Assembly (NCBI RefSeq): GCF_000473265.1
Contig: NZ_KI421511.1
Span: forward strand, 1,849,731 to 1,913,730
Direction of reading: 5' to 3'
DNA from: Amycolatopsis thermoflava N1165
Lineage (GTDB): Bacteria > Actinomycetota > Actinomycetes > Mycobacteriales > Pseudonocardiaceae
Length of the DNA: 64,000 nt
In this document: in pieces, positions 13,038 to 60,332 of the stretch
Numbering within the stretch: position 1 is the first letter of the stretch
Layout of the letters: each line of letters starts with the position of its first letter
The notes under the pieces: generated by a model
The model's input: the letters and a program-made list of their open reading frames with translations, nothing else
What the model was told of the DNA's origin: nothing
Databases searched by the model: none
Translations under genes and position numbers: made by a program

Positions 13038-13082
13038 CCCACCCGGTGGCGCACAAATCGACCCTGACAGCGGAAGGATGCT

Positions 13083-13565: not shown

Positions 13566-13570
13566 TTATC

Positions 13571-34156: not shown

Positions 34157-36826
34157 ATGCCTGGCATGTCGATGCGTAGAGCTGGCGCCGTTGTCGTCGT
34201 GACGATCAGGGTGCTTCGCGGGTTGCTCGCCGCAATGGTCCTGCTTGCTCTGCTCGGCGGTCTGCCGTGGGCGCTCATCCGATTCGTCGGGTGGCCCCTG
34301 CCGGACCACCTGCCGACCTTGGCGGAGATCGAAGGCGTTTTGCTCGGACCCATGACCGCAACCTTCCTGCTGAGCTTCCTCGCCTGCCTCAGCTGGGTGG
34401 TTTGGGCGCTGTTCGCGGTGGACGTGGCTCGCTGCGCCGTCGACATGGTGCGCGGCATGCGCGTTCCCGACGTGGTTGCAGCCGGCCCAGTCCGCCGGGC
34501 TAGCGCTGCTCTCGTCGGTGCGATCCTGATCGCGATCGTGGGTCAACGCTTCGACCAGGGCGTCACCACGGGTACGAACTTGAGCGCCGAGTTCGTCGCC
34601 GCCTCCGACGTGAGGGTCGTCGCCTATGAGCAGAACAACGCCGAGGAGGCTGTCACGGCGAGGACCGTGGTGGCCCTTGCGCCGGACCCGAAAACCGGCG
34701 TGCACGACTCGCTGTGGCGCATCGCCGAGCGCACGCTCGGAGACGGCAAACGCTGGCCGGAGATCTTCGACCTCAACCGAGGCAAACCGCAGCCCAACGG
34801 AGGCTTCTTCGACCGGCCCAGCTTGATTTTCCCCGGCGAGGAGTTCAGGTTGCCAGCTGCCGCGAGCAGCCCAACGGAGATCAAGCCTCCGTCCACGGCG
34901 GATCCCGCGGAAGAGCCAGCGCACCGCAGCCCCGAACCGAAGCCGCCCGTCCACGACATGCAGCCGCCTCCCTCAGGTGCGGCGGGGTTCCGGTGGGGCG
35001 ATGAGCTGTTCGTCGGACTCGGACTCGCGTCCGCGATCAGCACAGCGTTGCTCATCGCGCGACGCCGGCGCCGCCGCCGCTACCGACCCGGCAGCGGCGA
35101 CCGTAGTGACCTGCCCGTCGCGCCGGTGGTGTACCAGCTACGCCTGGCCCATCTGCGAGCCACCCAGGAGGACGAGTCGGACGCGCCCGCCAACGAGTTG
35201 CCGAACGGGCCGGAACCGCTGCACGCGCAGGACAGCACTCTGCCCGTCGGCATACGAGACGGCCGAGAGCTCGCGTTGGACCTCGCCGCGGTCCGCGGAC
35301 TCGGCCTCATCGGCGAGGGCGCACCAGCTGCGGCACGGGCACTGCTCGTCGCCGCCAGCACGGCCTCCGGGACGCGCGTGATCTGCCCAGCTGAGGACGC
35401 GGAGGCCCTGCTGGGCAATCACGCGGACCAGGACCTCCTGCCGACAGGCGTGCAGCTGACCGGCGATCTTGATGCCGCCCTGGACGACCTCGAAGCCGAG
35501 ACGCTGTCCCGCGCCCGCCAGACCGCCGATACCCATCCACCATCATTGCCACCCATCCTGCTCATCGCTCGGACGCCGGAACGCAACCGAGAACGGGTGC
35601 AGGCGGTTCTGGACAACGGCTCGGGCTTCGGCGTGACCGGGGTGCTGCTGGGCCAGTGGCCCGCCGGCGTCACTACTTACGTTCGAGACGACGGCACCGT
35701 TTCCGCCACCAATCCCGGCCCAGGCGAACGACTCCGCGGCACGCGCATGTTCCGCGTCGGCGACGACCACCTCGCCGACTTGCTAGCCCTGCTTCGCCAA
35801 GCCGACACACCGCACGGAGACGACCAGCGGACAACTCTGCCCGAGCAGGAGTCCGATCTCGAGCTCGCCGCGGGGAAGCGCGCCGGGGAACAGCCCGACG
35901 CAGGGCTGGAGATTCTCGGGGCGACAGCCGGCTCTGCTGATCCGGCCGTCGTTCCCCTCGTTTCATCTCAACAGCGCGCGACCGGACACCAGCAGGACTC
36001 GCTCGCGCCGCTGCGAGTCACCGTTCTGGGCCCGGTCCGGGTGTGGTGGCGACCCCAGCCCCCGCCTGCCGCTGAGGTCGTCGAGAACGAGGTCACCTCT
36101 GCATTCCAGCCCCGGGTGCGTGAACTGCTGGTGTTCTTGGCGCTGCACCCGGACGGCGTCAGCCGTGAGGCACTGACCGCGGCCCTGTGGCCGGCAAGTC
36201 CCCCCGAGAAGACGACCAACTCCCTGAACACGAGCCTGAGCCGCCTCCGGCGGGCAGTCAGCGCCGCCACCAGTGGCGAACTCACTGACGTGATACTGGC
36301 CGGCGAAGGCCGCTACCGCCTCAATCCCGCCCTGGTCGAAGTCGACTACCACTGCTTCGCCGCCGCAGTGGCTTCGCGGCGCGCGGCCACGACCCAGCAG
36401 GACCGGATCGACGCCAACCGCCGCACGGTCGAGAGTTATACCGGTCCCCTCGCCGACGGCATGAGTACGGAATGGATCGAGACCGCCCGGGAATCCATCC
36501 GCCGTGACGCCATCGACGCCGTCGCGGCGCTCGCAAGAGCCCTGGTCGACCAGGACCCCCAGCAGACCTTGGACCTCCTTGAGATCGCCCGCGCCTTCGA
36601 CCCGCACAACGAGCTGATCTACCGCGACATCATGCGCCTGCAGGAACGCCTCGGTCAGGTCGACGCGATCCCGCGGACCCTGACGCTGCTCTCCACTCGC
36701 CTCGCCGAGGTCGACGAAGAACCCAGCCCGGAAACGATCGGCCTGGCTGACCGGTTGCAACGCCGCCACGAAGTCCACGCAGAAGCCGTCGCAACACCCG
36801 CAACCGGATACAACAAAGCCGGGTGA
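34157..36826 (+). CDS. Membrane LysM protein with C-terminal BTAD transcriptional activator domain
   Basis: An 889-residue multidomain protein. N-terminal transmembrane helices span about 10-40 and 70-125. A LysM-like module follows at about 190-235 (GVHDSLWRIAERTLGDGKRWPEIFDLNRGKPQ), then a Pro-rich linker and another membrane segment (FVGLGLASAISTALLIARRRRRRR). The C-terminal third is cytoplasmic: an OmpR-like winged helix (ELLVFLALHPDGVSREALTAALWPASPPEKTTNSLNTSLSRLRRAV) and a BTAD domain. Such proteins are common next to actinobacterial Tad loci and may link wall state to transcription. The ribosome site is weak; nearby in-frame ATGs are possible starts. Confidence 0.85.
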   Translation: MPGMSMRRAGAVVVVTIRVLRGLLAAMVLLALLGGLPWALIRFVGWPLPDHLPTLAEIEGVLLGPMTATFLLSFLACLSWVVWALFAVDVARCAVDMVRGMRVPDVVAAGPVRRASAALVGAILIAIVGQRFDQGVTTGTNLSAEFVAASDVRVVAYEQNNAEEAVTARTVVALAPDPKTGVHDSLWRIAERTLGDGKRWPEIFDLNRGKPQPNGGFFDRPSLIFPGEEFRLPAAASSPTEIKPPSTADPAEEPAHRSPEPKPPVHDMQPPPSGAAGFRWGDELFVGLGLASAISTALLIARRRRRRRYRPGSGDRSDLPVAPVVYQLRLAHLRATQEDESDAPANELPNGPEPLHAQDSTLPVGIRDGRELALDLAAVRGLGLIGEGAPAAARALLVAASTASGTRVICPAEDAEALLGNHADQDLLPTGVQLTGDLDAALDDLEAETLSRARQTADTHPPSLPPILLIARTPERNRERVQAVLDNGSGFGVTGVLLGQWPAGVTTYVRDDGTVSATNPGPGERLRGTRMFRVGDDHLADLLALLRQADTPHGDDQRTTLPEQESDLELAAGKRAGEQPDAGLEILGATAGSADPAVVPLVSSQQRATGHQQDSLAPLRVTVLGPVRVWWRPQPPPAAEVVENEVTSAFQPRVRELLVFLALHPDGVSREALTAALWPASPPEKTTNSLNTSLSRLRRAVSAATSGELTDVILAGEGRYRLNPALVEVDYHCFAAAVASRRAATTQQDRIDANRRTVESYTGPLADGMSTEWIETARESIRRDAIDAVAALARALVDQDPQQTLDLLEIARAFDPHNELIYRDIMRLQERLGQVDAIPRTLTLLSTRLAEVDEEPSPETIGLADRLQRRHEVHAEAVATPATGYNKAG

Positions 36827-36858: not shown

Positions 36859-37380
36859 TCAGGCCGGCCTCGACGGAAAATCGTCATCGCCCTCGTCCGC
36901 GGACGGCCCGCCATGCGGACCGTGCTCGCGGCTGTATTTCTGGGCCTGGGCCAACAAGTCAGAGTGCGCCCGAGTCCAGGCGATCAGCGGCTCCGCTGCC
37001 TCGAGCGCCTCGACGACAGCCGGATTCAAAGAGTATTCGACCTCCGGCGGAAAAGACTTCGTACTGCGTTCCCGGACGACCAACCCCTGCATGCGCATCT
37101 TTTTCAGGGTCCGCGCCAGAATGCTATCGTGCAGGACGGGGTGTTTATCCGTCCAGTTCTCGTCGATGAAATACGAGTTGACCGTGGAAAGAATATCTAC
37201 CCGACGCAGCGGGCCATCTCGGAGTGCCACGACTATCGCCGGCACCCACTTGTCCCCGAACAGGTTCCTCAAGTCGTACAGGCCCCGCAGGACCCCGTCG
37301 TCTCGCTCCGCCACCACGCCTCCCCACGTGTGCCGACCCGGACCGTCGAGGTACCGACTCACCCTCGTCGACGAGGGCAC
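36859..37380 (-). CDS. HxlR-like winged-helix regulator
   Basis: A 173-residue protein with an HxlR-type winged helix: LRNLFGDKWVPAIVVALRDGPLRRVDILSTVNSYFIDENWTDKHPVLHDSILARTLKKMRMQGLVVRERSTKSFPPEVEYSLNPAVVEALEAAEPLIAWTRAHSDLLAQA. It is convergent with the LysM-BTAD gene and divergent from the MoxR/VWA module across a 600-base gap, so it probably regulates that region. No ligand-binding domain is visible. Confidence 0.82.
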   Translation of the reverse strand: MPSSTRVSRYLDGPGRHTWGGVVAERDDGVLRGLYDLRNLFGDKWVPAIVVALRDGPLRRVDILSTVNSYFIDENWTDKHPVLHDSILARTLKKMRMQGLVVRERSTKSFPPEVEYSLNPAVVEALEAAEPLIAWTRAHSDLLAQAQKYSREHGPHGGPSADEGDDDFPSRPA

Positions 37381-37995
37381 CTCGACAAGCCCACGCTACG
37401 CCAAACGGAGCAACGCGCCCAACCGTAGAACTACTCAATCCACGCTCACCGGGCACTGACGATCAGCAGCCGAGCTGGCGCAGCAGGGGCGGACCAGACG
37501 AGGATCACCTGGGGGATCAACATGGGGCTCACATCAGGGCTCCGATTAGAGCGCCATCCCCCCGCGACGCGAAAGCACCTGGTCAGGGCACCATCAGGGG
37601 ATCCGGTGGCACCCCAGACTCGACCCGCCGCAAGGCGGTCAGCACATCAGGGCCGGCCAGGCGGGACAGGACGGCGGGCCAGCCGGTCCCCGCCGCAGGC
37701 GTCGTTCACCCTCCCACTTCATATTTCGCATATAAATGAACAGCCAGCGGTTCAATTTAACCCTCTTTATAAACATACCAATTCAACCATTGCGACGACA
37801 TGGACAGACCTCTGACCAGCGCAAACAGGGCGAAGGGTGGGAGAAATTGTGCCAATTCGACAGGGTTCGAAAACGCAGGAAAAGAGTCTCGAAAAAGCAC
37901 GGCCGAACCTATTGCGCACGGGCCGCATGTCGAGTCATAATTGATTTGTCGCCGGGGAAACCGGAAATCATCCGCAGAACCTGAATGGGGGAACC
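37381..37995. promoter_or_regulatory. Long AT-richer leader before the MoxR-VWA module
   Basis: A 615-base gap without a gene. CATCAGGG occurs three times (37532-37539, 37592-37599, 37645-37652). From about 37720 to 37990 the DNA becomes clearly AT-richer than anything nearby, with TTCATATTTCGC, CTTTATAAAC and AATTGATTTG stretches. Candidate roles are promoter plus operators, oriT or a replication site; nothing identifies which. Confidence 0.5.
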
Positions 37996-38241
37996 ATGGA
38001 CACCACACCATTTGTCTGGAATGAGCCCGATGGCAGCACCGTGACCGCGTACCGAATCGCTTTCGACGGTCGGAAAATGACGGTGTACGGCCCCGACGGT
38101 CCGCGTACCCGGACCCGCCGGAACCGTGGCGGTTACGCCACTGCGGCCATGTTGCGGGCCATGGGATACACGGACCTGATGGTGGTTTGTCCATTCGGGA
38201 CCAGCGACGAATTTCCGTGCACCACGTTGGCCGAATCGTAA
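37996..38241 (+). CDS. Small conserved hypothetical protein
   Basis: An 81-residue protein (MDTTPFVWNEPDGSTVTAYRIAFDGRKMTVYGPDGPRTRTRRNRGGYATAAMLRAMGYTDLMVVCPFG). GGGGGA lies just before the ATG. It opens the MoxR-VWA gene row. No motif is recognised and no membrane segment is present. Confidence 0.75.
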   Translation: MDTTPFVWNEPDGSTVTAYRIAFDGRKMTVYGPDGPRTRTRRNRGGYATAAMLRAMGYTDLMVVCPFGTSDEFPCTTLAES

Positions 38242-38268
38242 CCCGCGATCCATCGAAAGGAGCCCGCC

Positions 38269-39495
38269 ATGACCGCCCCCATGTCGCCTGGCACGGTATC
38301 GGCCACCCCCGCAGCCGGGTCCGGGACCACTTCCCGGCTGCGCAACGGCGAACTGCGCGCGATGGTCGCGCGGGTCCTGGCCGACAACCACGGCACGCCG
38401 TTGACCCCGCGCGCGATCGCGGCCAAACTCGGCGGCCGCTCGTCGGGTGCGGTCGGGAACGCGCTGAAAGCGTTGGCCGACCAGGGGCACGCCTTCACGG
38501 CATCGGCCGCACCGCTGACCTACGGCGCGACCGCGACCACCGATACCGTCGCCGCAGCCACCATCACTCCCGCGCCCCCACGGCCACCCGCCACCACCCG
38601 GGCGGCCCGTCCGAACAGGACCACCACGGCACCGGCCCCCGCTGCAGCCCCGGCAGCCACGCCACCCACCCCGGCCCCGGCGCCGGTCACCGGCCCGGTG
38701 ACCCGTCCGAACGGCACCCCGTACCACCCCCGGTTGTTGTCCGGGATGCCGGACGTGGTCGCGTTGCGGAAACTGCGGGACGCCGGAATTCCCGCCCTGA
38801 TGTACGGCCCGCCCGGTACCGGGAAGACGTCGGTGGTCGAGGCCGCGTTCCCCGACCTGCTGACCGTGCAGGGCGACGGCGACACCACGGTCGCCGACCT
38901 GGTCGGCGAATACGCCCAGACCGTGGACGAGAACGGGACCGTGCGCTACACGTTCATCCACGGCCCGCTGGTCCGCGCGATGCGTGAGGGCCGGACCCTG
39001 TTCATCGACGACGCCACCCTGATCCCCCCGACCGTGCTAGCCGTGGTCTACCCCGCGATGGACGGCCGCCGCCAAATCATCATCAAAGCCAACGGGGGCG
39101 AGATCATCGACGCCGCGCCCGGGTTCTACGTGGTCGCCGGGCACAACCCCGGCGTGCACGGCGCGGTGCTCACCGACGCCCTGTCATCCCGGTTCGCCGC
39201 CCAGATCCACGTGTCCACCGACTACGACCTCGCCGCGCAGCTCAAGATCGACAAGCGCGCAGTGAAGATCGCCCGGAATCTCGCCACCCGGCACGCCAAC
39301 GGCGAAACCGGGTGGGCGCCCCAGCTTCGCGAGCTTCTGGCGTTCCAAAAGATCGCCGACGTACTCGGCGTCGAGGCCGCCGCCGGGAACCTGGTCGGTA
39401 CCGCCCCGGAAGAGGACCGCGCCACCGTCGCCGCCGTGGTGCGCCAAGTGTTCGGCAAAGACCTCGCCCCGCTCGCCCTCGGCACGCGCATCTGA
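38269..39495 (+). CDS. MoxR-type AAA ATPase with N-terminal winged helix
   Basis: A 408-residue protein. Residues 26-85 form a winged helix (LRAMVARVLADNHGTPLTPRAIAAKLGGRSSGAVGNALKAL). A Pro/Ala/Thr-rich linker leads to an AAA core: Walker A GPPGTGKTS (180-188), Walker B LFIDDATL (244-251), and sensor-like GHNPGV. MoxR ATPases remodel partner proteins, usually with a VWA protein, which here is the next gene, 28 bases downstream. The same winged-helix type recurs in the protein at 42825. Confidence 0.88.
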   Translation: MTAPMSPGTVSATPAAGSGTTSRLRNGELRAMVARVLADNHGTPLTPRAIAAKLGGRSSGAVGNALKALADQGHAFTASAAPLTYGATATTDTVAAATITPAPPRPPATTRAARPNRTTTAPAPAAAPAATPPTPAPAPVTGPVTRPNGTPYHPRLLSGMPDVVALRKLRDAGIPALMYGPPGTGKTSVVEAAFPDLLTVQGDGDTTVADLVGEYAQTVDENGTVRYTFIHGPLVRAMREGRTLFIDDATLIPPTVLAVVYPAMDGRRQIIIKANGGEIIDAAPGFYVVAGHNPGVHGAVLTDALSSRFAAQIHVSTDYDLAAQLKIDKRAVKIARNLATRHANGETGWAPQLRELLAFQKIADVLGVEAAAGNLVGTAPEEDRATVAAVVRQVFGKDLAPLALGTRI

Positions 39496-39523
39496 CCGCG
39501 ACTTCTGTCCGAAAGGGACTGTC

Positions 39524-41272
39524 ATGAGCAATCACCTCGCCGACCCCGCCGCCGCCGGTACCGCCGTGTTCCCGGCCCGCCCGGAATGGCTCACCCTGTC
39601 CGCCGCCCTGGCCGACGAGGTCCCGGTCATCGCCGACCGCGACGACCTGCTGGTCACCATCGCGCCGGGTGCGGGCGGCGGCGCGGCAGCCTGTTTCTAC
39701 CCCGGTCCGGCGCTGATCGAGGTCGATGGCAATAACCTCAAGGTCGACCCCACCACCGTCGACCCGGCCAACATCGGCGACCGCACCCGCTACGCCGCCA
39801 CCTGGGGCGCACTCACCCACGAATGCGGCCACGCCAAACACACCGCCTGGGACCCACCCGAGGACGCACCGGCCGGGGTGGTCGAGGCCGCGATGCTGCT
39901 GGAGGAAGCACGCATGGAAGCCGCGCAGATCCGCCGCCGCCCGGATGACCGGCACTGGCTGCGCGCGTGCGTGAAGGAGCTCGTCGCCGATGACCTGCAC
40001 CTGTTCGCCGACCCGGCCACCGCCCCACAGATGACCTCCGCCGACGCCGCCCGCTCCGCCGCACTGTTGCTCGCGCGGGCCGATGGCGCTGTGCTGACCG
40101 AGGTCGAGGTCGCCCCGCTCGCCCGGGTGATCGAGAACGTACTCGGCCCGGACACACTGGGAAAGCTGCGGGCGGTGTGGCAGGCAGCGCTGCACACGGC
40201 CGATGACGACGGCGAGACCATGCTCGACCTTGGGCGTCAATGGTGCGGGATCCTCGCCACCGATCCCAACCAGCCCACTCCGCCCGGCACCTCGGGGACG
40301 CCGAACGGCACCGGATCACCCGCCCCGGGCACGAAGTCGCCGATGGCGGAGGCGATCGCCACCGTGCTGGACAACGTGGCCGCCAACGTCGCCCGGCAGC
40401 AACCGCCAGAGGACCCGGCCGCACGTGCGGCCGCCGCGCAGGAGCGCGAGAAGGCGGCCCAGCAGGAGGCCGACCGCGCTGCCCGGAAGACGTTCCGGCC
40501 CGGCGGACCCAGGGACGGCCGCACCGCACTGGCCGGGACCCGGCCACCGACCCAGGAGGAGCGCACTGCCGCCCGCGTGCTCGCCCGTGCCCTGGACAGC
40601 GCGGGGGCGCGCGAGCGGAGCGCGGTCAAGACGACCTCGGTGGTCCCGCCGGGGCGGTTGCGGATGCGCGGCGCGCTGGCCGCCGACGCTCAGCGCGCGG
40701 CCGGGGCCGTGCCCACCGCCGAGCCGTTCACCCGCATCACCCGTGCCGCGACCCCCACTCCACCGCTCCGTCTCGGCATCGCCTGCGACGTGTCCGGAAC
40801 CATGCGCTGGGCTCGCGATCACGTCGCCTCCGCCGCCTGGATCCTCGCCACCGCCGCCCGCCACACCCGCGTGCCCGCCGACACCGCCACCGTGATCTTC
40901 GGCAACCACGTGCGGCCCCTGACCCACCCAGGCCGAACCCCGGCCGTGGTGACCGAGTTCAAGTCCGACGACAACTGGGAAGACATCCCCACCGCCATCG
41001 CCGCCCTCGACGGCGCGCTCGGCCTGTCCAGCCCCGGCGCAGCCCGGCTGCTGGTCATCGTGTCCGACGGCCAATTCCGGGACCAGCCACGGACCGAAGG
41101 CCAGAAGCGGCTTAACCGGCTACGCGCCGCCGGGTGCGCGGTGCTGTGGCTGACCACCAACAAGAGCGACACGCCGCTCGACGGGGCACGCGTGCACCTG
41201 CTCACCGGCCCCGCCACCACCGCCCAGGCCATCGGACGCGCCGCCACCGCTGCCCTGCGCGCCGCCCTCTGA
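39524..41272 (+). CDS. Zincin-like and VWA-domain protein, partner of the MoxR ATPase
   Basis: A 582-residue protein with two parts. The N-terminal half has a metalloprotease-like motif HECGH (99-103) and an acidic helix LLEEARMEAAQ (125-135) that could give the third zinc ligand. A helical, Pro/Gly-rich middle follows. The C-terminal VWA domain starts LRLGIACDVSGTMRWARDH, with the metal-ion site DVSGT (422-426), and later VIVSDGQF and LWLTTNKSDTP. MoxR plus VWA protein is a known chaperone-like pair; fusion of the VWA to a zincin-like domain is unusual. A ribosome site (GAAAGGGA) precedes the ATG. Confidence 0.87.
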   Translation: MSNHLADPAAAGTAVFPARPEWLTLSAALADEVPVIADRDDLLVTIAPGAGGGAAACFYPGPALIEVDGNNLKVDPTTVDPANIGDRTRYAATWGALTHECGHAKHTAWDPPEDAPAGVVEAAMLLEEARMEAAQIRRRPDDRHWLRACVKELVADDLHLFADPATAPQMTSADAARSAALLLARADGAVLTEVEVAPLARVIENVLGPDTLGKLRAVWQAALHTADDDGETMLDLGRQWCGILATDPNQPTPPGTSGTPNGTGSPAPGTKSPMAEAIATVLDNVAANVARQQPPEDPAARAAAAQEREKAAQQEADRAARKTFRPGGPRDGRTALAGTRPPTQEERTAARVLARALDSAGARERSAVKTTSVVPPGRLRMRGALAADAQRAAGAVPTAEPFTRITRAATPTPPLRLGIACDVSGTMRWARDHVASAAWILATAARHTRVPADTATVIFGNHVRPLTHPGRTPAVVTEFKSDDNWEDIPTAIAALDGALGLSSPGAARLLVIVSDGQFRDQPRTEGQKRLNRLRAAGCAVLWLTTNKSDTPLDGARVHLLTGPATTAQAIGRAATAALRAAL

Positions 41273-41291
41273 CACCGCAAGGAGGTGCCCC

Positions 41292-41849
41292 ATGGACACC
41301 GGACCCGATCCGTTCCCCGATCCGGACCGCGCGACGTGGTGCGCGCTCAGCGAGGTCGTCGGCGACCGCTACCGGATCTCGATCGCCACCGCACCAGGCC
41401 ACTGGGCGGAATGCACCTTCCCGGCCACCGCCGACATGACCCACCCCCGGGCCGTGACCACCGCAGTCGAACGCTTCACCGGCCGCCACGTAACCACCGT
41501 GACCCCGGGCCGCCCCCAGGGCGACGGCTGCCCCAGCTTCCGGCTCACCCTAGGAGAGGAGATCAATGCCATGACCCAGACACCCGACACCGAGATCGTC
41601 GTTCGCACCTTCACCGAGAACGGCTGCATCATCACCGCCGTCATCGCCGACCCCGCCGACGCACAACAGACCCTGTACGGCACCGTCACCCGTGACGGGC
41701 TGCTGGTCGGCAGCTACTACTGCGCCGACCGCGTCTGGCAGCGCGACTGGCGCATCGTGGTCCCCGGCAACCAGCAGATCTGCCTCGGCTCCGAAAGCGA
41801 GGCGGTGTACGTGCTCACCACTGCCGGATCGGAAGGGGCGGGACAGTGA
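41292..41849 (+). CDS. Hypothetical protein of the MoxR-VWA module
   Basis: A 185-residue protein in a tight row of genes, 19 bases after the VWA gene. The first part (YRISIATAPGHWAECTFPATADMTHPRAVTTAVERFTGRHVTT) and second part (TPDTEIVVRTFTENGCIITAVIADPADAQQTLYGTV) look like two similar beta-rich domains. A strong ribosome site (GGAGAGGAG) before an internal ATG at 41571 suggests a second product or a former separate gene. Its stop overlaps the next start (ATGA-type). Function unknown. Confidence 0.65.
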   Translation: MDTGPDPFPDPDRATWCALSEVVGDRYRISIATAPGHWAECTFPATADMTHPRAVTTAVERFTGRHVTTVTPGRPQGDGCPSFRLTLGEEINAMTQTPDTEIVVRTFTENGCIITAVIADPADAQQTLYGTVTRDGLLVGSYYCADRVWQRDWRIVVPGNQQICLGSESEAVYVLTTAGSEGAGQ

Positions 41850-42643
41850 CACGCGTAGAGCTGCAGCGGTTGCCCCGCAGTGTCCGCGCAGCCATCGAGA
41901 AGTTCGAGTCCCTGTTCGCGATCGGGATTTGGCGGGACTTCCCGCACGTAACCCAGGGCGAGCTTCGACTGACGTTCGAGGCCGGCTGGGATCCCGAGTC
42001 CGTGTCGCGAGCGTTCGCCAGAACATTGCTGGAGCACCAGGTCGACGGCGAGGTGTTCCTGACCTACGGCGACGAGTCCGCCCGTCACAGCGCGGGCGGT
42101 GACCACTGGTGGGTGCGCATCGTGCTGCCTGATCATCGGGAACTCAACATCGACTGGACGGCCCGCCAGTTCTACAACCTCGAGCAGCCGCACTCGCCAC
42201 AGCACCAGGACCTTCCCTGCCCACTGGTCTGGCAGAGCGATCAGCCCGGCGAGTCCGTGCACCCGGTCACCGGGACGTACCTACTCCTCAGGACGGAACG
42301 GGTTGGCATCGAAGATTCGTGCGGGGACGTCCGCGATTCCCGAACCGGCTTACCCCGCGTGCTCTCCAGCAAGTGCCGCACGTGCATCTTCCGCCCGGGC
42401 AATCCGATGCACCTGGAGGACGGTTACCGCGACCGGATGGTCCACGAGGCGCTGGCGAGGGGAAGCTGGATCGTCTGCCACGACACCCTGCCCGCGACCG
42501 GCGCACCCATCGGCGCACAAGCCATCTGCCGCGGCTTTTGGGACGCGCACGGCCCGGATTCCCTCGGCTGCCGCGTCACCGCCGCTTTGGGCGGCCCCAT
42601 TTATGCACCCCCGCCCACCGAGCATGCCCAACCGAACAGCTAG
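41846..42643 (+). CDS. Papain-like plus cysteine-cluster protein
   Basis: A 265-residue protein. The first half has DHWWVRIVLPDHRELNIDWTARQFYNLEQPHSPQ; His and Asp in this pattern resemble papain-like/transglutaminase toxins of the BTLCP type (H..., then IDxTARQF). The second half has KCRTCIFRPGNPMHL, then WIVCHDTLP and AICRGFWD, a four-Cys set that could bind zinc or iron-sulfur; similar modules occur in actinophage proteins. It overlaps the preceding gene. A role as effector of the MoxR-VWA module is a guess. Confidence 0.65.
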   Translation: MTRVELQRLPRSVRAAIEKFESLFAIGIWRDFPHVTQGELRLTFEAGWDPESVSRAFARTLLEHQVDGEVFLTYGDESARHSAGGDHWWVRIVLPDHRELNIDWTARQFYNLEQPHSPQHQDLPCPLVWQSDQPGESVHPVTGTYLLLRTERVGIEDSCGDVRDSRTGLPRVLSSKCRTCIFRPGNPMHLEDGYRDRMVHEALARGSWIVCHDTLPATGAPIGAQAICRGFWDAHGPDSLGCRVTAALGGPIYAPPPTEHAQPNS

Positions 42644-42695
42644 ACGGAGCGACCGTCCACAAGAGACTTCCATGGGATTTCCATATCACGCTTGA

Positions 42696-42710
42696 CTTCA
42701 TGGGATGAAG
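42696..42710. promoter_or_regulatory. Small perfect hairpin before the winged-helix gene
   Basis: CTTCAT-GGG-ATGAAG at 42696-42710, preceded by a related CTTCCATGGGA. It sits in a 180-base gap upstream of the regulator gene at 42825 and downstream of the papain-like gene. Candidate operator or end of transcript. Confidence 0.35.
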
Positions 42711-42824
42711 GAAGCGTCCATAGACGTGTAGCCCGATCACACCGGCCGCGCACCGGGGGCTACACCGCCCCGGCCGGGGCATGACCCACCGCACTGATCA
42801 CACACGAGTGAATCGAGGGAAGTC

Positions 42825-43532
42825 ATGTCCAGCAAGAACCGCAACCGCCCGCCCCGCGGGACCGACCCCGCCGCCCACACGGATGCACCGGCGGGCCGCA
42901 CCGACAACGAAGACAGGCTGTGGGCCGCCCTGCACGCGCATCCCCACAGCGCCGTGACTGAGCTGGCCACCCTGGCCAAGATCGGACGGTCGACCGCGCA
43001 GAAGATCCTCGCCCGATGGGCCGCCGACGGCAGCGTGACCCGTACCCCGGGGATCGCCGAGGGAGGCCGACGCGCCCCCGACTCGTGGGCGATCACCGAA
43101 GCGCCGCTCCCTGAGGTCAGCACCAGCACAGACTCGGCGGCGACCACCACCGAGTCGCACCCGCCGGCCCGCGAGGCCGCCCGGGAAAGCAGCCACGAGG
43201 CGGACAAAGAGGACGCAACGCCAGGCAGCGGCACCTCGGCGGAGGAGACCGCGCGCGGCACCAACCCGCCCCTCGACGACGGGCAGAAGGCTGACCGGCT
43301 CGCACCTGGAGCGCTACGCGGCATGGTCGAGGACTACCTGCGCGACCACCCCGACGACGAGTTCGGCCCCACAGCAATTGCCAAGGCGCTGGGAGGGAAG
43401 TCCTCCGGGGCGGTGAGCAACGCGCTGGACAAGCTGGTCCTCGACGGCACCGCCGTGCGGACCAAGGACAAGCCAAGGCGTTTCCGGCTCGCGCCTGACA
43501 ACGACGCTCCGTCCCAGGCATCAATGAACTAG
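42825..43532 (+). CDS. Two-winged-helix regulator of the MoxR-VWA region
   Basis: A 235-residue protein with two winged helices. One is near the N-terminus (LWAALHAHPHSAVTELATLAKIGRSTAQKILARWAADGSV). The C-terminal one, LRGMVEDYLRDHPDDEFGPTAIAKALGGKSSGAVSNALDKLVLDGTAVR, is plainly related to the N-terminal domain of the AAA ATPase at 38269. A Ser/Thr/Glu-rich linker joins them. The shared domain suggests that both proteins bind the same kind of DNA site. The gene ends before a strong terminator. Confidence 0.8.
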   Translation: MSSKNRNRPPRGTDPAAHTDAPAGRTDNEDRLWAALHAHPHSAVTELATLAKIGRSTAQKILARWAADGSVTRTPGIAEGGRRAPDSWAITEAPLPEVSTSTDSAATTTESHPPAREAARESSHEADKEDATPGSGTSAEETARGTNPPLDDGQKADRLAPGALRGMVEDYLRDHPDDEFGPTAIAKALGGKSSGAVSNALDKLVLDGTAVRTKDKPRRFRLAPDNDAPSQASMN

Positions 43533-43649: not shown

Positions 43650-45032
43650 TCATCGCCGCAGGAGACGGTCGAAGAACTCCGAGACAGTGTCGGTGATGCG
43701 ACCTTTCGTGAGTTCGTAGCCGCTGAAGCGGTAGACCTCGTAACCGGATAACCGGAGATCACGATCGCCGCGGGTCGTCTCGCTGTAGATGCGCGGGCTC
43801 GGCTGGTGGTCAGCAGTCGCGTAGTGTTGCTCTCCATCCACTTCCAGCACCACTCTTCTGAGCCCGGGCAACAGCATCAGGAAGTCGATGCGTTGGTTGA
43901 GGTAAGCGTCCTCGCCTCGTTGTCGCCGGGCCACTGGGTCCCAGTGCAGCCAGACCTCTGGCAGCAGCGCATAGAGTGGGTCGCGGTCCTTCGCGTATTC
44001 GTAATACGTGGTCAGGAAAGCGCGTTGGGCTGGTGAGGCGTTGGTACAGGCCTGCACCAGCCGACGCCAGAGGTCACCCTTGGCCTGACCGGCCGGGATC
44101 TCCCGGCGATGCGACCACCACGACTCGAGATCATGCCAGGTAAGACCGCCTTGCCCCACCGGCACATCGTAGGCAAGCACCTTGTCCTCGCCAGTGAGTA
44201 CCTCAATGCTTTGGTCGAGAACGTCGCTGACCCGCAGCTCGGGCTTACCATGCTGGCCGGCGAAGAGGATGAGTTGAGTCGGGCGAGGACGTGTGCCGAC
44301 AGTCACGACAGCGAAATCCGGGTAGCCGTCCACGGTGCCGGACTCGATGACCTGCAAACCGGCACGGTTGAGGATCGGCAGAATCGCCGCAGCCAACTTC
44401 CGCTGTCGCGCTTCGTCTGGGTTGACAGAACTCGATAGCAGCCCCTCAAGGAACAGCACGAACCGGCGACCTCCGCCGTCCAGAGCACCGATCTCCTTAA
44501 AGAACTGAACCGTCGTCCAGTCGCCCGGGTTCCGGATCATGTGCCGGACGACTGGCTCGTAGGGATCCGTCCAGTCGAACGACCAGTTCGACGAGGGCAG
44601 CACCCAGTATCGCTTCACCAGAGCCATAAGCCCGTCGCCTTCCAGCCAGATCTCGCCGCATGCGTCCAACGCCTCGGCGACTTCACGGCGGATCCTGGCC
44701 GTGATCGGCGGCCAGTCCTCCCGTGACCAGAGAAGGTCCTCCACTCGGCTTCGCAGCTCGGGCGACAGGCCACCGCGTTCTAGGAAGCGCGCGCACACGG
44801 AGTCATATTGGCTTGGCGGGGTAGCAAGGAAAGCCTGGTCGAGCCGTTGCCTCTTGGACAGCGACTCCGCGTTTTCAACCTGCGACGGTTCCGGATGCTC
44901 CGAAGGGATTGCCAGCCCCAGTGTCGCGCCGACCATGTCCAGATCGACGTGCCGGAGGGGATGCAGCGTCGCGACGAGCTCGCGGACCAACTCTTCGGCC
45001 TCGACGTCTACCCCAACTTTGCCGGTCGGCAC
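43650..45032 (-). CDS. AbiJ-like N-terminal domain with C-terminal DUF559/Vsr-type endonuclease
   Basis: A 460-residue protein from GTG 45032, which has a GGGGGGAG before it. The central part (FVLFLEGLLSSSVNPDEARQRKLAAAILPILNRAGLQV) resembles AbiJ_NTD3, a domain of abortive-infection proteins. The C-terminus has the restriction-like motif QRIDFLMLLPGLRRVVLEVDGEQHYA...GDRDLRLSGYEVYRFSGYEL: Asp, Glu-x-Asp and the final Arg region fit a DUF559/Vsr-like nuclease. A phage-defence toxin that cuts nucleic acid is the best guess. Convergent with the winged-helix regulator. Confidence 0.75.
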   Translation of the reverse strand: MPTGKVGVDVEAEELVRELVATLHPLRHVDLDMVGATLGLAIPSEHPEPSQVENAESLSKRQRLDQAFLATPPSQYDSVCARFLERGGLSPELRSRVEDLLWSREDWPPITARIRREVAEALDACGEIWLEGDGLMALVKRYWVLPSSNWSFDWTDPYEPVVRHMIRNPGDWTTVQFFKEIGALDGGGRRFVLFLEGLLSSSVNPDEARQRKLAAAILPILNRAGLQVIESGTVDGYPDFAVVTVGTRPRPTQLILFAGQHGKPELRVSDVLDQSIEVLTGEDKVLAYDVPVGQGGLTWHDLESWWSHRREIPAGQAKGDLWRRLVQACTNASPAQRAFLTTYYEYAKDRDPLYALLPEVWLHWDPVARRQRGEDAYLNQRIDFLMLLPGLRRVVLEVDGEQHYATADHQPSPRIYSETTRGDRDLRLSGYEVYRFSGYELTKGRITDTVSEFFDRLLRR

Positions 45033-45336
45033 TTCAGTCTCCCCCCGGACAACGCACGGACACAAGATCTGGTTCAGACGATCTCACCAGTATGCTCGGG
45101 TCACTTGAAAACCCGACAAGCACACGGTTCTCACCATCACGTCATCGTGGCCCTTGGCCAACGTTGAGCTAGAACCCACCATCGGCTATGGCCAGGCTTG
45201 GGTTGGGCGAAGTTGCGGTGGCGGAGATCGGGCGGCCCGGTGCGGTTGCACCGCGGAGCATCGGCCCGGCCGGGGTCGCATATAAGACGCGCAACTTGCC
45301 CCTGTTGATCAAGGGACGGCGACGGGAAGGCGGGGG
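45033..45336. other. Intergenic region upstream of the AbiJ-like gene
   Basis: 304 bases with no gene I can support. It contains the minus-strand promoter of the AbiJ-like gene and the 3' end of the HNH gene. TTGATCAA in CCTGTTGATCAAGGG near 45302-45316 is a small palindrome. Nothing else stands out. Confidence 0.35.
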
Positions 45337-45867
45337 CTAGTCCGCCTGCCGTGGGCGGAGGTCGGGCCCGTTGAACTCGAACTGGCGAGCGCCGGACTCA
45401 GCCCACGCCTGGGCGAACAGGCGGCCATTATCCGTCAGCCGATAGACGTCCGCGGGGACGCCTTCCGCTACATCGTCCCGGACCCACTCGATGTAGCCGT
45501 CGGCGTTTAGGAAGCGCACGCACGGTGCCCACCTCTTCGAGTGGCTGAAGTGGGTGCCGTGGTGTTGCGCGAACAGACTTAGAATCTTGATCTCCGTACC
45601 TGTGTACCGATCATTCTCCCAGGCAAGTCGAGCCTTTAGCACGCGAAGGTCCTGGGTCGTGACGGTTCCCTTCGTGTGCTTCCGGTGACAGGTCGGACAG
45701 AGCATGATCTGATTACCGAATGAGTCGTCATGAGTCTTCGAATAGTCGACCAGGTGCGCCCGGTCGAGCTCAGTCTCACGGCACTGCGGCATGGGGCACC
45801 GGTAGCCGACCTCAAGTTTGAGATCACGCTCAAGCGCGGTCGGGATGGTAGGACGTCCGACTGACAT
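45337..45867 (-). CDS. HNH endonuclease with C-terminal winged-helix-like region
   Basis: A 176-residue protein. The HNH motif is spread over RCPMPQCRETELDRAHLVDYSKTHDDSFGNQIMLCPTCHRKHTKGTV, with paired cysteines around it, as in zinc-stabilised HNH nucleases. The second half (SLFAQHHGTHFSHSKRWAPCVRFLNADGYIEWVRDDVAEGVPADVYRLTDNGRLFAQAW) looks like a winged helix. It acts on DNA, probably in defence or element biology. Confidence 0.82.
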   Translation of the reverse strand: MSVGRPTIPTALERDLKLEVGYRCPMPQCRETELDRAHLVDYSKTHDDSFGNQIMLCPTCHRKHTKGTVTTQDLRVLKARLAWENDRYTGTEIKILSLFAQHHGTHFSHSKRWAPCVRFLNADGYIEWVRDDVAEGVPADVYRLTDNGRLFAQAWAESGARQFEFNGPDLRPRQAD

Positions 45868-46315: not shown

Positions 46316-47305
46316 TCAATACATCGAGACGTGGATGTGGTCGTAGTGGCAGCCGGTGACGTTGGCCGGATCCGGGCAGCCATACGCGTCGGATTGGTAG
46401 GGCTGCCACGTGGGGTTGTCGGCCGACCAGTACTGGCCCTGCCAGATCAGGTACCGCACGCCGAGCACGGGCTGGTGGGCGATCAGCCACTCGGTGATCC
46501 GCCACCCCTCGCTCACCGCCTGCGGATCGCCGGGTTCGAGCAGGATGTCGCACGCGCGGCCCTGCGGGTGATCGGAGCTGGGGTTCGCGGGGCGCGCCTC
46601 GTAGCAGCCGAGGCCATCGCCTGTCATCGCGCCCGCCTGCAAGGCCCGGACGAGAGCGAGCGTGCGAGGCGTGATGCGGCCGCGGCTGGTGGGGTCGGGC
46701 TCGGTGGCCTGCTCGGAGGGCCAGCTGGTGCGCAGCTGTCCAGGGGCCGTGATGGCCGTGCAGGTGACGCCGTTGAGAGCGCCCACGACCTGACGGGCGG
46801 CGTGCTCGTGCTGGGCATAGGCGTTGGGGTAGGCGGAGCGTTGCACGGCCTGCGCGGCGCCGGTGACGCTCATCTGTTGCCAGTTAGGCACGGCCAACAG
46901 GTGCTCGTAGAACTGGGCGGCGGCGTAGCTGGGGTTGAGGATCTGCGCCGGGGTGCCCCAGCCTTGCGAGGGCCGTTGCTGGAAGAGGCCGAGACTGTCC
47001 CGGTCCCCGTAGTCCAGGTTACGCAGCCGGGACTCCTGCATGGCCGCGGCGACGGCGATCACCCACCCGTACTCGGGCACTCGCATCTGCTTGCCGACGG
47101 CGACGATGGTGGCGGCGTTGGCAAGCTCTTCGGGGCCGTATCCCGCGACTCCGGTCGCGGGGCTGGCACCGGCGGGAGCACAGTCAGCACCGCCACCGCT
47201 GGTGAACAGGGAGGCGACCACACCGGCGGCGGCAGCGCCGATCAGCACCGGAATGAGCAGCACCACGACCGCCGCGACCGCCGCCGTCTTGACTGAAGCC
47301 GTCAC
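46316..47305 (-). CDS. VirB1-like lytic enzyme with second peptidase-like domain
   Basis: A 329-residue exported protein from GTG 47305 with a signal anchor (AAVAAVVVLLIPVLIGAAAAGVVASLF). The first domain is lytic-transglycosylase-like: ELANAATIVAVGKQMRVPEYGWVIAVAAAMQESRLRNLDYGDRDSLGLFQQRPSQGWGTPAQI. The C-terminal part ends RACDILLEPGDPQ...YGCPDPANVTGCHYDHIHVSMY, with the HxxxxD and HxH pattern of D-Ala-D-Ala (M15-type) enzymes. It should open peptidoglycan for the conjugation channel. Last well-supported gene of the T4SS operon. Confidence 0.87.
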   Translation of the reverse strand: MTASVKTAAVAAVVVLLIPVLIGAAAAGVVASLFTSGGGADCAPAGASPATGVAGYGPEELANAATIVAVGKQMRVPEYGWVIAVAAAMQESRLRNLDYGDRDSLGLFQQRPSQGWGTPAQILNPSYAAAQFYEHLLAVPNWQQMSVTGAAQAVQRSAYPNAYAQHEHAARQVVGALNGVTCTAITAPGQLRTSWPSEQATEPDPTSRGRITPRTLALVRALQAGAMTGDGLGCYEARPANPSSDHPQGRACDILLEPGDPQAVSEGWRITEWLIAHQPVLGVRYLIWQGQYWSADNPTWQPYQSDAYGCPDPANVTGCHYDHIHVSMY

Positions 47306-47311
47306 CTGCGC

Positions 47312-48313
47312 CTACCGCCGTGACGGGGGCGGCATCGGCGAGGGCGGAGGCGGCACCGGACCGGGCGCGGTGTCGTCCGCAGCGACCGGTGGCGGGAGGC
47401 CGGGCCAGGCGTCGGCGAGGCCGGCGAGTGTCCGTCGGCGCAACGGCCCTCGAGGGTCGAGGGGAAGCCATACCTCGTCGGCGGGGCTCGGGTGTGCGGC
47501 GGCCGGGTCGAGCAGATCGGCCGCCGCGGTCGCGACGGGCACGGTGCACGGCTCGGCCAGCTGACCCTGGGCTCGGGCCAGCACGCGGCGGGCGTTGACC
47601 TCCCGACGCGAGTTCGGCAGCCACACCAGCACGGGGGTGGTGATGCCGCTGGCTTCCGCGAGGGCGGCATAACCGGACAGTTTCCCGGCAAGCTTCGCCA
47701 GAGGCTCGGTGCCGAAGTCAAACTCCAGGAACCACTCGATCTGCCGGTCCCCCTGCTCCCACCGGCCGTAGGCGTCGGGCCGGACGAGGTCGCCGAAGTG
47801 ACGGCCGCACCGTGTCTCGGACCACCAGGCCGTCAACACGCCCTGCTCGTGGCGGGCACGGGCGACGAGGGTGGTGAACCACTCATTCACCCCGACGGTG
47901 TGTGCGAGCCGCAGGCTGTGCGCGACGGCGAAGACACGCTCGTGCCGGTAGCCCATCTCCTTGACGTCCCGGCCGTCCTCCGCCGCGAGCACCGTGGCGC
48001 CGGCCGGGGCGAGCACGTAATGCATCGGCGCTGTCCCGACGGTGACGAACGGCTGGAAGCGGTCCACCACGCCCCACAGGTAGAGCTCGCGCAGCCGCTG
48101 GCGTCCTGACCTGAAGCTGGGAAACGCGAGGGCGGTGACCTGGTGCGAGGTCAGGACCCGGTGCTCCCACAGCATGCGGGCGATCCATTTGTCCCGGGGC
48201 GTCAGCCGCACCGCCAGCGCAGCCTGGTGATCGGCCGAATTCGCGACGCGCGGGCTCGGGCGAGCGGGCTTGTGTCCGCGCAACGCTCGCTGGGGAGTCG
48301 GGTTGGTGATCAA
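47312..48313 (-). CDS. Replication-relaxation family protein
   Basis: A 333-residue protein. I start it at TTG 48313, which has GGAGG five bases upstream, although a longer in-frame TTG exists at 48325. The core LTPRDKWIARMLWEHRVLTSHQVTALAFPSFRSGRQRLRELYLWGVVDRF is a winged helix typical of the Replic_Relax family, often followed by RQIEWFLEFDFGTEPLAKLAGKLSGYAAL, a nuclease-like strand pattern. These proteins accompany actinobacterial conjugation loci and plasmid transfer. The C-terminus is Pro-rich. A role in DNA processing is inferred. Confidence 0.85.
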   Translation of the reverse strand: MITNPTPQRALRGHKPARPSPRVANSADHQAALAVRLTPRDKWIARMLWEHRVLTSHQVTALAFPSFRSGRQRLRELYLWGVVDRFQPFVTVGTAPMHYVLAPAGATVLAAEDGRDVKEMGYRHERVFAVAHSLRLAHTVGVNEWFTTLVARARHEQGVLTAWWSETRCGRHFGDLVRPDAYGRWEQGDRQIEWFLEFDFGTEPLAKLAGKLSGYAALAEASGITTPVLVWLPNSRREVNARRVLARAQGQLAEPCTVPVATAAADLLDPAAAHPSPADEVWLPLDPRGPLRRRTLAGLADAWPGLPPPVAADDTAPGPVPPPPSPMPPPSRR

Positions 48314-48345
48314 GGTCGCCTCCAACGAGGTCCAAGTGGATGGGT

Positions 48346-50881
48346 TCAGCTGCGCCGGCGGGGATCAGCGCTGCGTGCGCGGGTGACTCGCTCGCTGCGG
48401 TTGGCCGGTGCCGCGCTGCCCGGCGACTTACCGCTCGGCCGCGTGGTGCTGAGCGTGGCGCGACGAGCGGCGGCGCGGATCTCGCGTGCGCGACCGGGAA
48501 CCGGTGGCGGCAGCGGCAGGGTGCGAAGGGTGAACGGCTGTGCCTCCTCGCCGTTCAGGACGAGTCGGGCGGCGGCGTGGTAGGCGCCGAGGTGGGCCAG
48601 GTCGTGGTCGGAGAGCCGTGGCGCGGTGTGGCGGGCCAGCTCACGTGCGTCTTCTGGCGAGGCGTTGAAGAAAATCTTGCTGCGTGCGTTGGTCGAGATG
48701 CCTTCGCGGAGTTCGCGGGGAAGCTGGCCGAGGTGCTGGTGCGCCAGCGTCATCGAGGTTCGGAACCCGCGGGCCTCGGCGAGCATGTCCTCGATCGGAT
48801 AGGGCAGGTTGAGGAAGTTGTGGCACTCGTCGATCACCAGGCTCGCGTCCCTGCGACGACGCTGAGGGATGCGCGCGCGGCCGGTGATGGCCTGCCAGGT
48901 GCGCGCCACGACCAGCGACCCGACCAACCGGGTGGTCTCCTCCCCCAACGAGCCCTTCGGGATGCGCACCAGGCAGATGCCACCGTCGAGCACCTCGCTG
49001 AGGTCGACTGTGGAGTGTCCTCCCGCGATGGCGGCGCGGACGAAGGGGCGCAGCAGGAAGGCGCGGAGCTTGTTCATCAACGGGCTGATGACCTGTGAGC
49101 GGGCCGAGTCGGTCAGCTCCTCATACCAGGACCAGAAGCTCCGCAGGACAGGATCGGTGATGCCGGCGGTGACGCGGCCGCGGAAGGCTTCGTCGGCCAG
49201 CAGTTTCGGCAGGTCCGCGAGGGTGGCGACGCCTTCCTGGGACCGGAGGGTCAGGCATGCCGCGCGCATCACGTCGTCGGTGCGCGGGCCCCAGAAGGCC
49301 GAGTAGACCCGGCGGAACACGGAGACGAGGTTGTCAACCATCAGGTCGGTTTCGCCGCCGTCGAGCGGGTTGAGGCATGGTGGGCGGGCCTTGCTGTCGG
49401 CGTCGAAGAGCACGACCCGGTCGGACGCGGAGCGGGGCAGCCGGGACAGGACGTCGGTGACGAGATCGCCCTTGGGATCGATCAGGACGGTTCCGCGACC
49501 GGCCTCGGCGTCGGCCAGGACGATCGTGCCCAGCAAGGTCGATTTGCCGGAGCCGGTCGCGCCGAGCACGTGCAGATGGTGTCGGGCGTCGGGGACTCGC
49601 AGGGCGACGGGCCGTTCGTGGCCGGTGTCGGTGACGCCGAGCGGTTTGGCTTCGGGCCCTGGTACGGCGATGCCAGGTGGGGGGCGCAATAGCCCGGGCT
49701 CCGGCGCGCTGCAGCCCGGGGATGGCCTCGTCGGTGGGGAGGTGGGCTATCGCGGCCAGCTCGGGCACCGACAGCAGGTCGCCTCGTGCCAGGAACCGGG
49801 AGTCGATGACCTGCCCGGGGCGGCGGAGGCGGTGTCGCGTGTAGTGGTTGTGCTCGGTGTAGGAGGCGAACGACGCGGCGAGGGCATGGGCGCGACCGCG
49901 GGCGACCTCTCGGGCTGCGCTGACCGCGTCGGCGTCGGCACTTGCGGGGAGGATGGTGGCGACGGCGTAGCGGACGACGGTCTCGAACTGGCTGCCGCGC
50001 TGCTTGGCGACGATGGCCCGGTTTTGTGCCGCGTACTCAAGCGAGGTTTGCGGGTCGCTGTGCAGAGCACCGGTCTTCGTGCGATGCAGTGTTGCGCGGC
50101 GGGTTCGTGGCATCCCAGGTGTGACGGCGTCCAGCAGGCGGCCGACCAGCCGCACGGAACTGCCGGTGTGGACCTGCCGGGCGGCGCGGCGGGCTCGTTG
50201 GACGCGGCGCCCGGTGACCGGGCGGGCCAGGACCTGTACGCAGGCGCGCTCGTTGCGCCCCAGTCCGACCGGCGCGCCGATGAGTGCGCGGATCGGGTCG
50301 GCCTCGAAGGCCGTGCGAATAGGCAGGGCTTCCGACCGCGCGAGCCGCAACTCGCCGCCGACCATGAGGCGCCGCTCGCCGTCGCGCGGAACAGGCAGTG
50401 GCGGCTCAGCAGGCCGCACCCGGGTGTGGGCGCCGGGCCACGCGGCCTCGACGGCACGCTCGACGAGGCCGGGTGGGATGACGCCGGGCACCCACAACCG
50501 GATCGCGACCCCTGCCTCGGAGAACACGTACTCGCAGGCAACGTGCGGTTGTCCGGTGAGTGCCTGTCGCCAGCCGGGCCGCAGGAGGCCCACGAGGTTG
50601 GACCACAGCGCGGCGCCGCCGGCTGGATCGATGGTGGGCGGGGCGAGCACGGTGACTTGACGTGCGTCGGCGACGAGTCGCTCGTGACACCGTCGCGCCC
50701 ACCACCTTCGCCCGGCGAGGAGCGTCGCGACCAGCATGGTGAGCACCGGCACGGCGATCGGGCCATCATCCATGGCGAGCTCGCGGAGTCGGCTCAGCAC
50801 GGCGACCAGCGCACCGCCAGGGTCGCGCAGGTAGTGCTCTAGCCAATCGATGGAAGCGGGATGTTTCTGCGCTATCCACAT
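48346..50881 (-). CDS. Type IV coupling ATPase (VirD4/TraG-like), apparent frameshift
   Basis: A full-length reading of about 845 residues requires one frame change. The 5' part (50881 to about 49690) encodes a membrane segment near the start and ends SVPELAAIAHLPTDEAIPGLQRAGARAIAPP. The 3' part continues PPPGIAVPGPEAKPLG and has Walker A LGATGSGKSTLL, RGTVLIDPKGDLVTDVL and Walker B SLVIDECHNFLNLP plus AEARGFRTSMTLAHQHLGQLP. The change falls in a six-base run (G6 on the plus strand, 49679-49684); deleting one base joins them. It may be a sequencing error, slippage or a real break. ATG 50881 has GGGAGAAGAG upstream. Confidence 0.85.
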
Positions 50882-50900
50882 AGGACTCTTCTCCCTGCGA

Positions 50901-60276: not shown

Positions 60277-60332
60277 CCCTCGCGTTGGTGATCTATCCTT
60301 TCCACGGGGAGACCAAACCAATAAGGACCGAC
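60277..60332. promoter_or_regulatory. Promoter candidate before the 60333 gene
   Basis: CGCGTTGGTGATCTATCCTTTCC and following bases give a loose -35/-10-like pair (TTGGTG, then TATCCT), 38-45 bases before GTG 60333, followed by an AAGGA six bases before the start. It supports separate transcription of this gene. Confidence 0.35.

Follow-up and report, generated by a model that had tools for sequence, protein, structure and literature searches.

In MoxR-VWA pairs, the AAA+ protein is expected to form a ring, and the VWA partner to dock on that ring via its VWA domain. One such pair is known from group 2.2 jumbo phages, where a MoxR AAA+ protein accompanies a vWA protein with an N-terminal metallopeptidase domain, and the accessible part of that account proposes a role in virion assembly (Iyer et al. 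2021, PMC7824862). MoxR-vWA ternary conflict systems add a third partner to the core pair, and their VMAP type is described as widespread in actinobacteria in the available passages of Kaur et al. (2020, PMC7159879). A third example is NorQ-NorD, to which the accessible text assigns remodelling and the insertion of metal into NO reductase via NorD (PMC13036017). Among integrative elements, ICEBs1 encodes ImmA, which cleaves ImmR (PMC6540685, accessible portion), and T4SS-type ICEs of actinobacteria are described, in the available sections of Ghinet et al. (2011, PMC3218068), as carrying integrase, VirB4-like and coupling-protein genes.

Here we compare with these systems a pair of genes, B and C, from a window of 64,000 nucleotides (the whole stretch of Amycolatopsis thermoflava N1165 DNA that was analysed). 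By description, B-C resembles the jumbo-phage pair in consisting of a MoxR AAA+ protein and a vWA protein with an N-terminal metallopeptidase domain (PMC7824862, accessible part), and the phage-type architecture is present in full, with a MoxR gene adjoining a gene whose product joins an N-terminal HExxH domain to vWA. Unlike the phage-borne pair, the window pair sits among T4SS-type transfer genes, and B carries a winged helix common to a regulator, whereas the accessible jumbo-phage description mentions none (PMC7824862). With the ternary conflict systems, as outlined in the available passages, B-C shares the core MoxR-vWA pair, but the peptidase domain of C is N-terminal and constant rather than a variable C-terminal effector (PMC7159879); a Pfam search of A-F for recognisable forms of a third partner (VMAP, iSTAND, FtsH or beta-propeller) gave no match. 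The likeness to ImmA-ImmR, as far as the accessible account of that system goes, is one of functional analogy, in that an element-encoded metalloprotease would act on the element's own DNA-binding regulator. ImmA is a small protein of the M78/IrrE type that is not known to carry AAA+ or VWA domains, and C differs from it in having no match to PF06114. The architecture of the pair is known from jumbo phages; its setting in T4SS-type elements and its winged-helix link are new.

Gene content and the B-C pair

Within the 8.7-Mb host genome, the region from 37996 to 43532 of the window holds six open reading frames, all on the plus strand, which we call A to F. A (81 aa; 37996-38241) is a small frame between a promoter-like stretch and B, and has a relative in just 2 of 29 loci. 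B (408 aa; 38269-39495) joins a winged helix (residues 26-89) through a linker to a MoxR-type AAA+ ATPase (AAA_5, E 2.1e-17). C (582 aa; 39524-41272) combines a predicted N-terminal zincin-like domain (HECGH at residues 99-103, EEARME at 127-132) with a C-terminal VWA domain, whose VWA_CoxE match (E 3.6e-6) is just above the family cut-off; its best relatives are from Amycolatopsis sacchari (95%) and A. deserti (94%). D (185 aa; 41292-41849), of which residues ~98-177 recur near C in some relatives, and E (265 aa; 41846-42643), which ends in a Cys/His domain (C-x2-C ... CH ... C), are, like A, without a family match above cut-off in a Pfam search. F (235 aa; 42825-43532) is a regulator with a MarR/TrmB-type N-terminal winged helix (MarR_2, E 9.1e-7) and a C-terminal winged helix of the B type (residues 161-224). 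The gaps are 27 bases between A and B, 28 between B and C and 19 between C and D; D and E overlap by 4 bases, and 181 bases separate E from F. These assignments agree with the original prediction, made from the DNA letters, of an AAA ATPase with its own DNA-binding domain, a VWA protein fused to an HECGH domain with its glutamate correctly numbered as Glu100, and a regulator that repeats the winged helix of the ATPase.

The same prediction treated the genes as a set kept together, which held for B and C but not for the remainder. A tblastn search with the window genes placed B immediately 5' of C in 28 of 29 loci of named genomes, and the sole exception (L037) has C as a fragment only. Beyond the two loci with a relative of A, relatives of D were found in 15 of 29 loci (mostly partial) and of E in 3 of 29, while F is near but variable in strand. 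B-C is thus a kept pair, and the six-gene set is not. With its adjoining MoxR-type (AAA_5) and VWA genes, B-C also has the gene layout of a MoxR AAA+/VWA cochaperone pair. In a class-wide sample, C matched 16 of 296 genomes, fragments counted. In a wider set of 13 stretches, C could not be read as a single frame in L063, L065 and L074, nor could B in L066 and L072, the last being a near relative from the window's own family and probably the same locus as L034. Two copies among the loci look damaged, namely B in L019 and C in L027.

NCBIfam matches of B were far below cut-off, and a defence-family search of A-F returned nothing strong (best E 0.00045). The PADLOC matches were set aside as too weak: A with E2 (0.0079), B with MkoA (0.002) and IetA (0.0096), and F with PDC-M05A (0.00045).

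The zincin-like and VWA domains of C

Conservation of the HECGH motif among homologues had been proposed as a test, and the HExxH frame was kept throughout with the inner two letters free. HECGH itself occurs in 28 of 29 near relatives, the remaining one being a fragment; HExxH occurs in 10 of the 13 stretches of the wider search (one of them the near relative; C unreadable in the other 3) and in 26 of 28 viral contigs (C unreadable in the other 2). Both HExxH and EExRxE carry on into plasmid, phage and viral-contig relatives. Across 24 diverse C sequences, with identity down to 25%, His99, Glu100, His103, Glu127, Glu128, Arg130 and Glu132 are invariant, and the same residues are invariant in a separate set of 12 sequences that includes plasmid and phage members.

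In a structural model of this domain (pLDDT 86.9), a helix and three strands precede the HExxH helix, which is followed by the EExRxE helix. The two motifs thus fall on successive modelled helices, with a glutamate on the second as candidate ligand, as in gluzincins, and the N-terminal domain of C is modelled as having a zincin-like layout. Zinc peptidases, as judged from titles and partly from recall, made up 46 of the 50 structural neighbours listed, IrrE and BlaR1 among them, every match being weak. PF06114 (ImmA/IrrE, M78) was absent both from the matches of C and from the families that a set of 24 N-terminal domains gave in a listing. Sequence searches for solved relatives of C gave none at E 1 and, in another search, nine chance-level rows with no peptidase among them. 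C is a putative protease, with a candidate substrate considered below.

The VWA part of C is closest to the NorD VWA by Foldseek, with the Rea1/MDN1 MIDAS also among the best matches; in VIA-align, many other VWA domains tie with Rea1. We know of no winged helix or HExxH domain in NorD. C ends soon after its VWA domain in 16 aligned rows, the window's included, and no variable effector domain C-terminal to the VWA was seen in these rows; 2 rows have an insert near the end.

Genomic setting, shared winged helix and conserved DNA

To the left of B-C, a large serine recombinase gene (9019-10773, minus strand) overlaps tRNA-Leu (9048-9132) at the candidate left end of the element, and the element backbone continues with two T2SSF-type membrane proteins (30302-32106, plus strand) and a BTAD-type protein (34157-36826, plus strand; BTAD E 2.5e-7, LysM match below cut-off) that has a relative in 24 of 29 loci. 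To the right, a stretch of transfer genes (46316-52853, minus strand) comprises a lytic-enzyme-like gene (46316-47305), Replic_Relax (47312-48325), a TraG-type gene (48346-49689), whose frame is shorter than in the 26 best other rows, and a VirB4/TraG P-loop gene (50901-52853); Replic_Relax (PF13814) is the only relaxase candidate among the genes scanned. The tRNA probe detected no second attachment site or right element end, its single other match (83% over 76 bases) lying elsewhere. Two defence-related loci also lie in the region, Lamassu LmuA-LmuC-LmuB (11847-15547), defence cargo 23 kb away from B-C, and a gene for an AbiJ_NTD3 protein (43650-45065). The element carries the integrase, VirB4-like and coupling-protein genes of a T4SS-type ICE, and in this respect is like the actinobacterial elements of Ghinet et al., at least as described in the sections available; MoxR is absent from the main text of that paper as far as accessible (PMC3218068). 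Among the open-access papers listed and the passages available, there was no description of a MoxR/peptidase-VWA pair in conjugative elements.

A second element in the host carries a C that is 61% identical, with its backbone in the same order; lytic-enzyme-like, Replic_Relax and TraG-type genes adjoin this pair too, again in unchanged order, and in both elements B-C lies on the strand opposite to the transfer genes. Among 100 family genomes, a TraG relative lies within 60 kb of C in 20 of 24 copies (19 within 25 kb), and a relative of F does so in 23 of 24 (22 within 25 kb). These 24 copies correspond to 26 of 31 C rows (two copies being in two pieces) and to 20 of 22 genomes tallied; the rows left out were G065:C55 twice, G082 twice and G030, and an F split into pieces was counted once. 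Viewed from TraG, C lies within 60 kb of 20 of the 27 best-scoring rows (70-100% identity) versus none of the next 31 (55-70% identity), the 58 rows counted being those of 81 that remained after 19 below 55% identity and 4 partial ones (G065 twice, G029, G050) were dropped. One of those 31 rows, in G082, does have a distant match 2.6 kb off, confined to the VWA part (34%). Among the 13 stretches of the wider set, each at most 20 kb long and two of them contigs of less than 9 kb, T4SS relatives were found in 5, a BTAD or T2SSF backbone in 3 and either in 7, so that the pair has T4SS neighbours outside the window's family as well; VirB4- and TraG-type genes precede the pair on the same strand in L066, L067, L069 and L073, with Replic_Relax also present in the last three. 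That B-C is backbone of T4SS-type integrative elements of actinomycetes, with a link to their transfer genes, is well supported, and the elements that carry it are probably conjugative.

The winged helix of B (residues 26-89) and residues 161-224 of F are 40.6% identical over 64 positions, with a common core SSGAVxNAL. That the two belong together was the strongest part of the original prediction, and the host genome reinforced it: when nine domains of this type were used as queries, four places scored strongly (E 1.3e-29 to 3.8e-20), namely the B and F genes of the two elements, and one further place weakly (E 3.7e-4), with 150 of 253 candidates scored and a profile that included the window's own two domains. 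Across 30 elements, among them those of the window and the second host locus, the B/F winged-helix profile picks up both genes in 22 to 23; in the others, F was not seen in the DNA stretch covered. Partner-specific covariation was not detected among the 22 compared of the 23 F-bearing elements (F of L017 being dropped), and, against a tighter link, the winged helix of B does not resemble its own F more than it resembles the Fs of other elements; the B row of L017 in the winged-helix consensus may be its F. F lies on the strand opposite to C in 19 of 22 further elements that have it, and on the same strand in the window.

A relative of B is present in 27 of 28 viral contigs, several of which are near-copies of each other, and the viral pair is mostly without the winged helix, which is present on the B relatives of integrative elements and on only two of these 27 (L081 and L103). 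A quick tree built from 51 AAA domains requires 2 changes of the winged-helix trait, a number as low being reached in none of 500 shuffles, and the 16 rows without the trait cluster together (SH-aLRT 100) once the very long branch L108 is set aside; L081 is placed among the element copies, and the position of L103 is ambiguous. The winged helix is thus a mark of the actinomycete lineage.

Between A/B and a divergent HxlR-type regulator gene (36859-37380, minus strand; HxlR E 2.5e-7; relative in 15 of 29 loci) on its far side lies an intergenic block (37502-37654) whose sequence conservation extends across genera. It consists of GGGGATCA-like repeats (37502-37555), GGGGATCC..CCCAGACTCG (37597-37622), a short inverted repeat CCGCC-GCAA-GGCGG (37625-37638) and CACATC (from 37643 on). 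The window's copy was placed by exact match. With up to 2 mismatches allowed, its core recurs in 24 of 29 rows; a variant form in the window, L009 and L019 escapes the common-form pattern. That pattern occurs at 24 places (18 of the places being exact matches) in 20 of the 100 genomes, against 17 for the reversed control, both at 2 mismatches or fewer. Of the 24 places, 18 lie 1.8-4 kb upstream of a C copy, and 18 of 24 C copies have the common-form block within 5 kb. Our claim for the block is based on its position near C, because the raw number of places is weak against the reversed control. It may serve as an operator array or, alternatively, as an origin of transfer, and elements without C may keep it. 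Single-strand DNA folding of four block copies was not clearly above shuffles (z 0.31, 0.50, -1.31 and -0.39); a hairpin was accordingly dropped, and we claim sequence conservation only. Before A-B-C, a promoter-like stretch (37879-37953, plus strand) with a AAGAGTCT box and the hexamers TTGCGC and CATAAT 18 bp apart, presumably a promoter, recurs at 5 mismatches or fewer in 16 of 29 rows, that of the window among them. A case of the block being kept in the absence of C is G007, in which the block, F and TraG share one contig.

A possible role in element control

To our knowledge, T4SS-type integrative elements of actinomycetes are little studied, and we know of no account of how they are switched on. 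The winged helix common to the motor B and the regulator F suggests an element-control switch rather than anti-phage defence. We tentatively favor, at a confidence somewhat short of probable, the general reading that B-C is a DNA-directed AAA+/metalloprotease machine, a core part of the element that acts on the element's own control. A more specific form, an operator-tethered, ATP-powered metalloprotease switch in which B lands on F sites via its F-type winged helix and C cuts or strips F, is possible if doubtful. In the favored scheme, which is also the simplest, the winged helix of B would carry the AAA+ ring to the binding sites of F, most likely in the 37.5-37.95 kb block, and C would dock on the ring via its VWA domain, in the manner of NorD on NorQ. 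Pulling powered by ATP would then free or expose a DNA-bound protein, most likely F, the first candidate substrate; the zincin domain of C would cut the exposed protein, and the resulting release of repression would start excision or transfer. The outline would be that of ImmA removing ImmR in ICEBs1, with the difference of being ATP-powered and operator-tethered. The original description of the module as NTP-driven and protease-based fits this predicted anatomy of a MoxR AAA+ protein and a VWA partner with HExxH...EExRxE and a modelled zincin-like domain.

An assembly role, which is the main rival to the control switch, would have B-C remodel and trim a structural or DNA-processing protein of the T4SS or relaxosome while the winged helix merely holds the pair at the element DNA. 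The occurrence of both proteins in phage and viral relatives, the virion assembly proposed in print for the jumbo-phage pair (PMC7824862, accessible part) and the same-strand position of the pair after VirB4/TraG-type genes in L066, L067, L069 and L073 are consistent with such a task, but expression control is favored by the winged helix that B has in common with F and by the conservation of the upstream DNA, and the pair runs opposite to the transfer genes in the window and the second element; we consider this role to be on the unlikely side. It is quite unlikely that B-C only strips proteins off DNA, with the zincin domain as a scaffold, because a scaffold would not need a catalytic-type glutamate to be as strictly conserved as its zinc ligands, which is what is seen for Glu100 in actinomycete elements, plasmids and phages; the accessible text does describe MoxR-VWA pairs as remodelling targets and inserting metals (PMC13036017). 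For metal or cofactor insertion, in which B-C would load metal into an element-encoded enzyme with the HExxH domain as carrier, one can cite the NorD and Rea1/MDN1 MIDAS matches of the VWA part and a phage relative annotated "cobalamin biosynthesis protein". We take that annotation to reflect resemblance, the window genes traced include no metalloenzyme that stays next to the pair, and the winged helix would be left unexplained; we consider this role very improbable.

The original prediction of a conflict or surveillance module, in which B-C would sense invaders and kill or arrest the cell or cut invader proteins, draws on the MoxR-vWA pairs that form the cores of proposed conflict systems (PMC7159879, available passages) and on the Lamassu and AbiJ_NTD3 genes in the region. 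The tie of the pair to one TraG group (20 of 27 versus 0 of 31 rows) is not what cargo would show, a Pfam search of A, D, E and F matched no VMAP, iSTAND, FtsH or propeller partner, the 16 aligned rows have no variable region after the VWA apart from the insert near the end in 2, and the pair is also found on viral contigs. With no strong defence match besides, this part of the prediction is not supported: we consider such a role improbable, and a stand-alone conflict system was rejected as first choice on neighbourhood and genome counts. The findings extend the occurrence of a MoxR/peptidase-VWA machine from phages to conjugative-type elements, caution against taking every actinomycete MoxR-VWA pair for a conflict system, and make the switching of T4SS-type integrative elements in these bacteria directly testable via the pair, the shared winged helix and the conserved DNA block. 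If the proposed switch is true, a single DNA-reading domain would serve the lock as well as its opener, and conjugative elements would have a new control mode built from a phage-shared machine.

Among the accompanying genes, E had been called papain-like, an identity that is unsupported by Pfam, NCBIfam or PHROG (no match in any of the three) or by a survey of homologues; the C-terminal half of E is instead the Cys/His domain, which is common to HAD-domain proteins. Ten of the 33 homologues of E carry HAD PF18143, and the Cys/His pattern is largely kept in 31 aligned rows.

Probable cargo of the integrative element

Three genes at 11847-15547 match LmuA, LmuC and LmuB, in that order (E 2.2e-60, 4.5e-8 and 4.8e-129, respectively), and constitute a Lamassu defence system, which is probably cargo carried close to the left end of the T4SS-type integrative element. 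A gene near this system (16063-17088) matches capP (E 6.8e-16), together with an M78/IrrE match that falls below the cut-off.

Further genes lie between F, the winged-helix regulator, and the transfer genes, namely one encoding an AbiJ_NTD3 protein (43650-45065; E 1.5e-36) and one encoding an HNH protein (45337-45867). Because the start-to-start distance between C, the zincin-like VWA protein, and F ranges from 2 to 15 kb in 22 of 23 cases among relatives, this interval, with its AbiJ_NTD3 and HNH genes, looks like a cargo spot. On the right side of the window, a DNA methylase adjoins a protein with a NERD match below the cut-off (58982-62489), and the pair is a possible restriction-type cargo.

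Transfer genes

The TraG-type frame in the 48346-50900 region of the window encodes 447 aa, compared with open frames of 829-1089 aa in the 26 other best TraG-type matches from the sampled family genomes; the short frame could reflect either a broken gene in the window or a misreading of it. The lytic-enzyme-like protein at 46316-47305, which matches phage tape-measure (E 3.1e-49) and endolysin (E 1.5e-20) families, is possibly a wall-opening component of the transfer system.

Relatives of B, C and E in other settings

Two viral contigs (L099 and L100) each encode a pair of B, the MoxR-type ATPase, and C, as well as a relative of E, the protein with a C-terminal Cys/His domain. One homologue found with E (P0162, 256 aa) is related to it across 21% of the query and also contains VWA domains. 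On a Streptomyces plasmid (L076, 10516-13716), a WGR-domain gene is directly followed by a B copy lacking the winged helix and a C copy.
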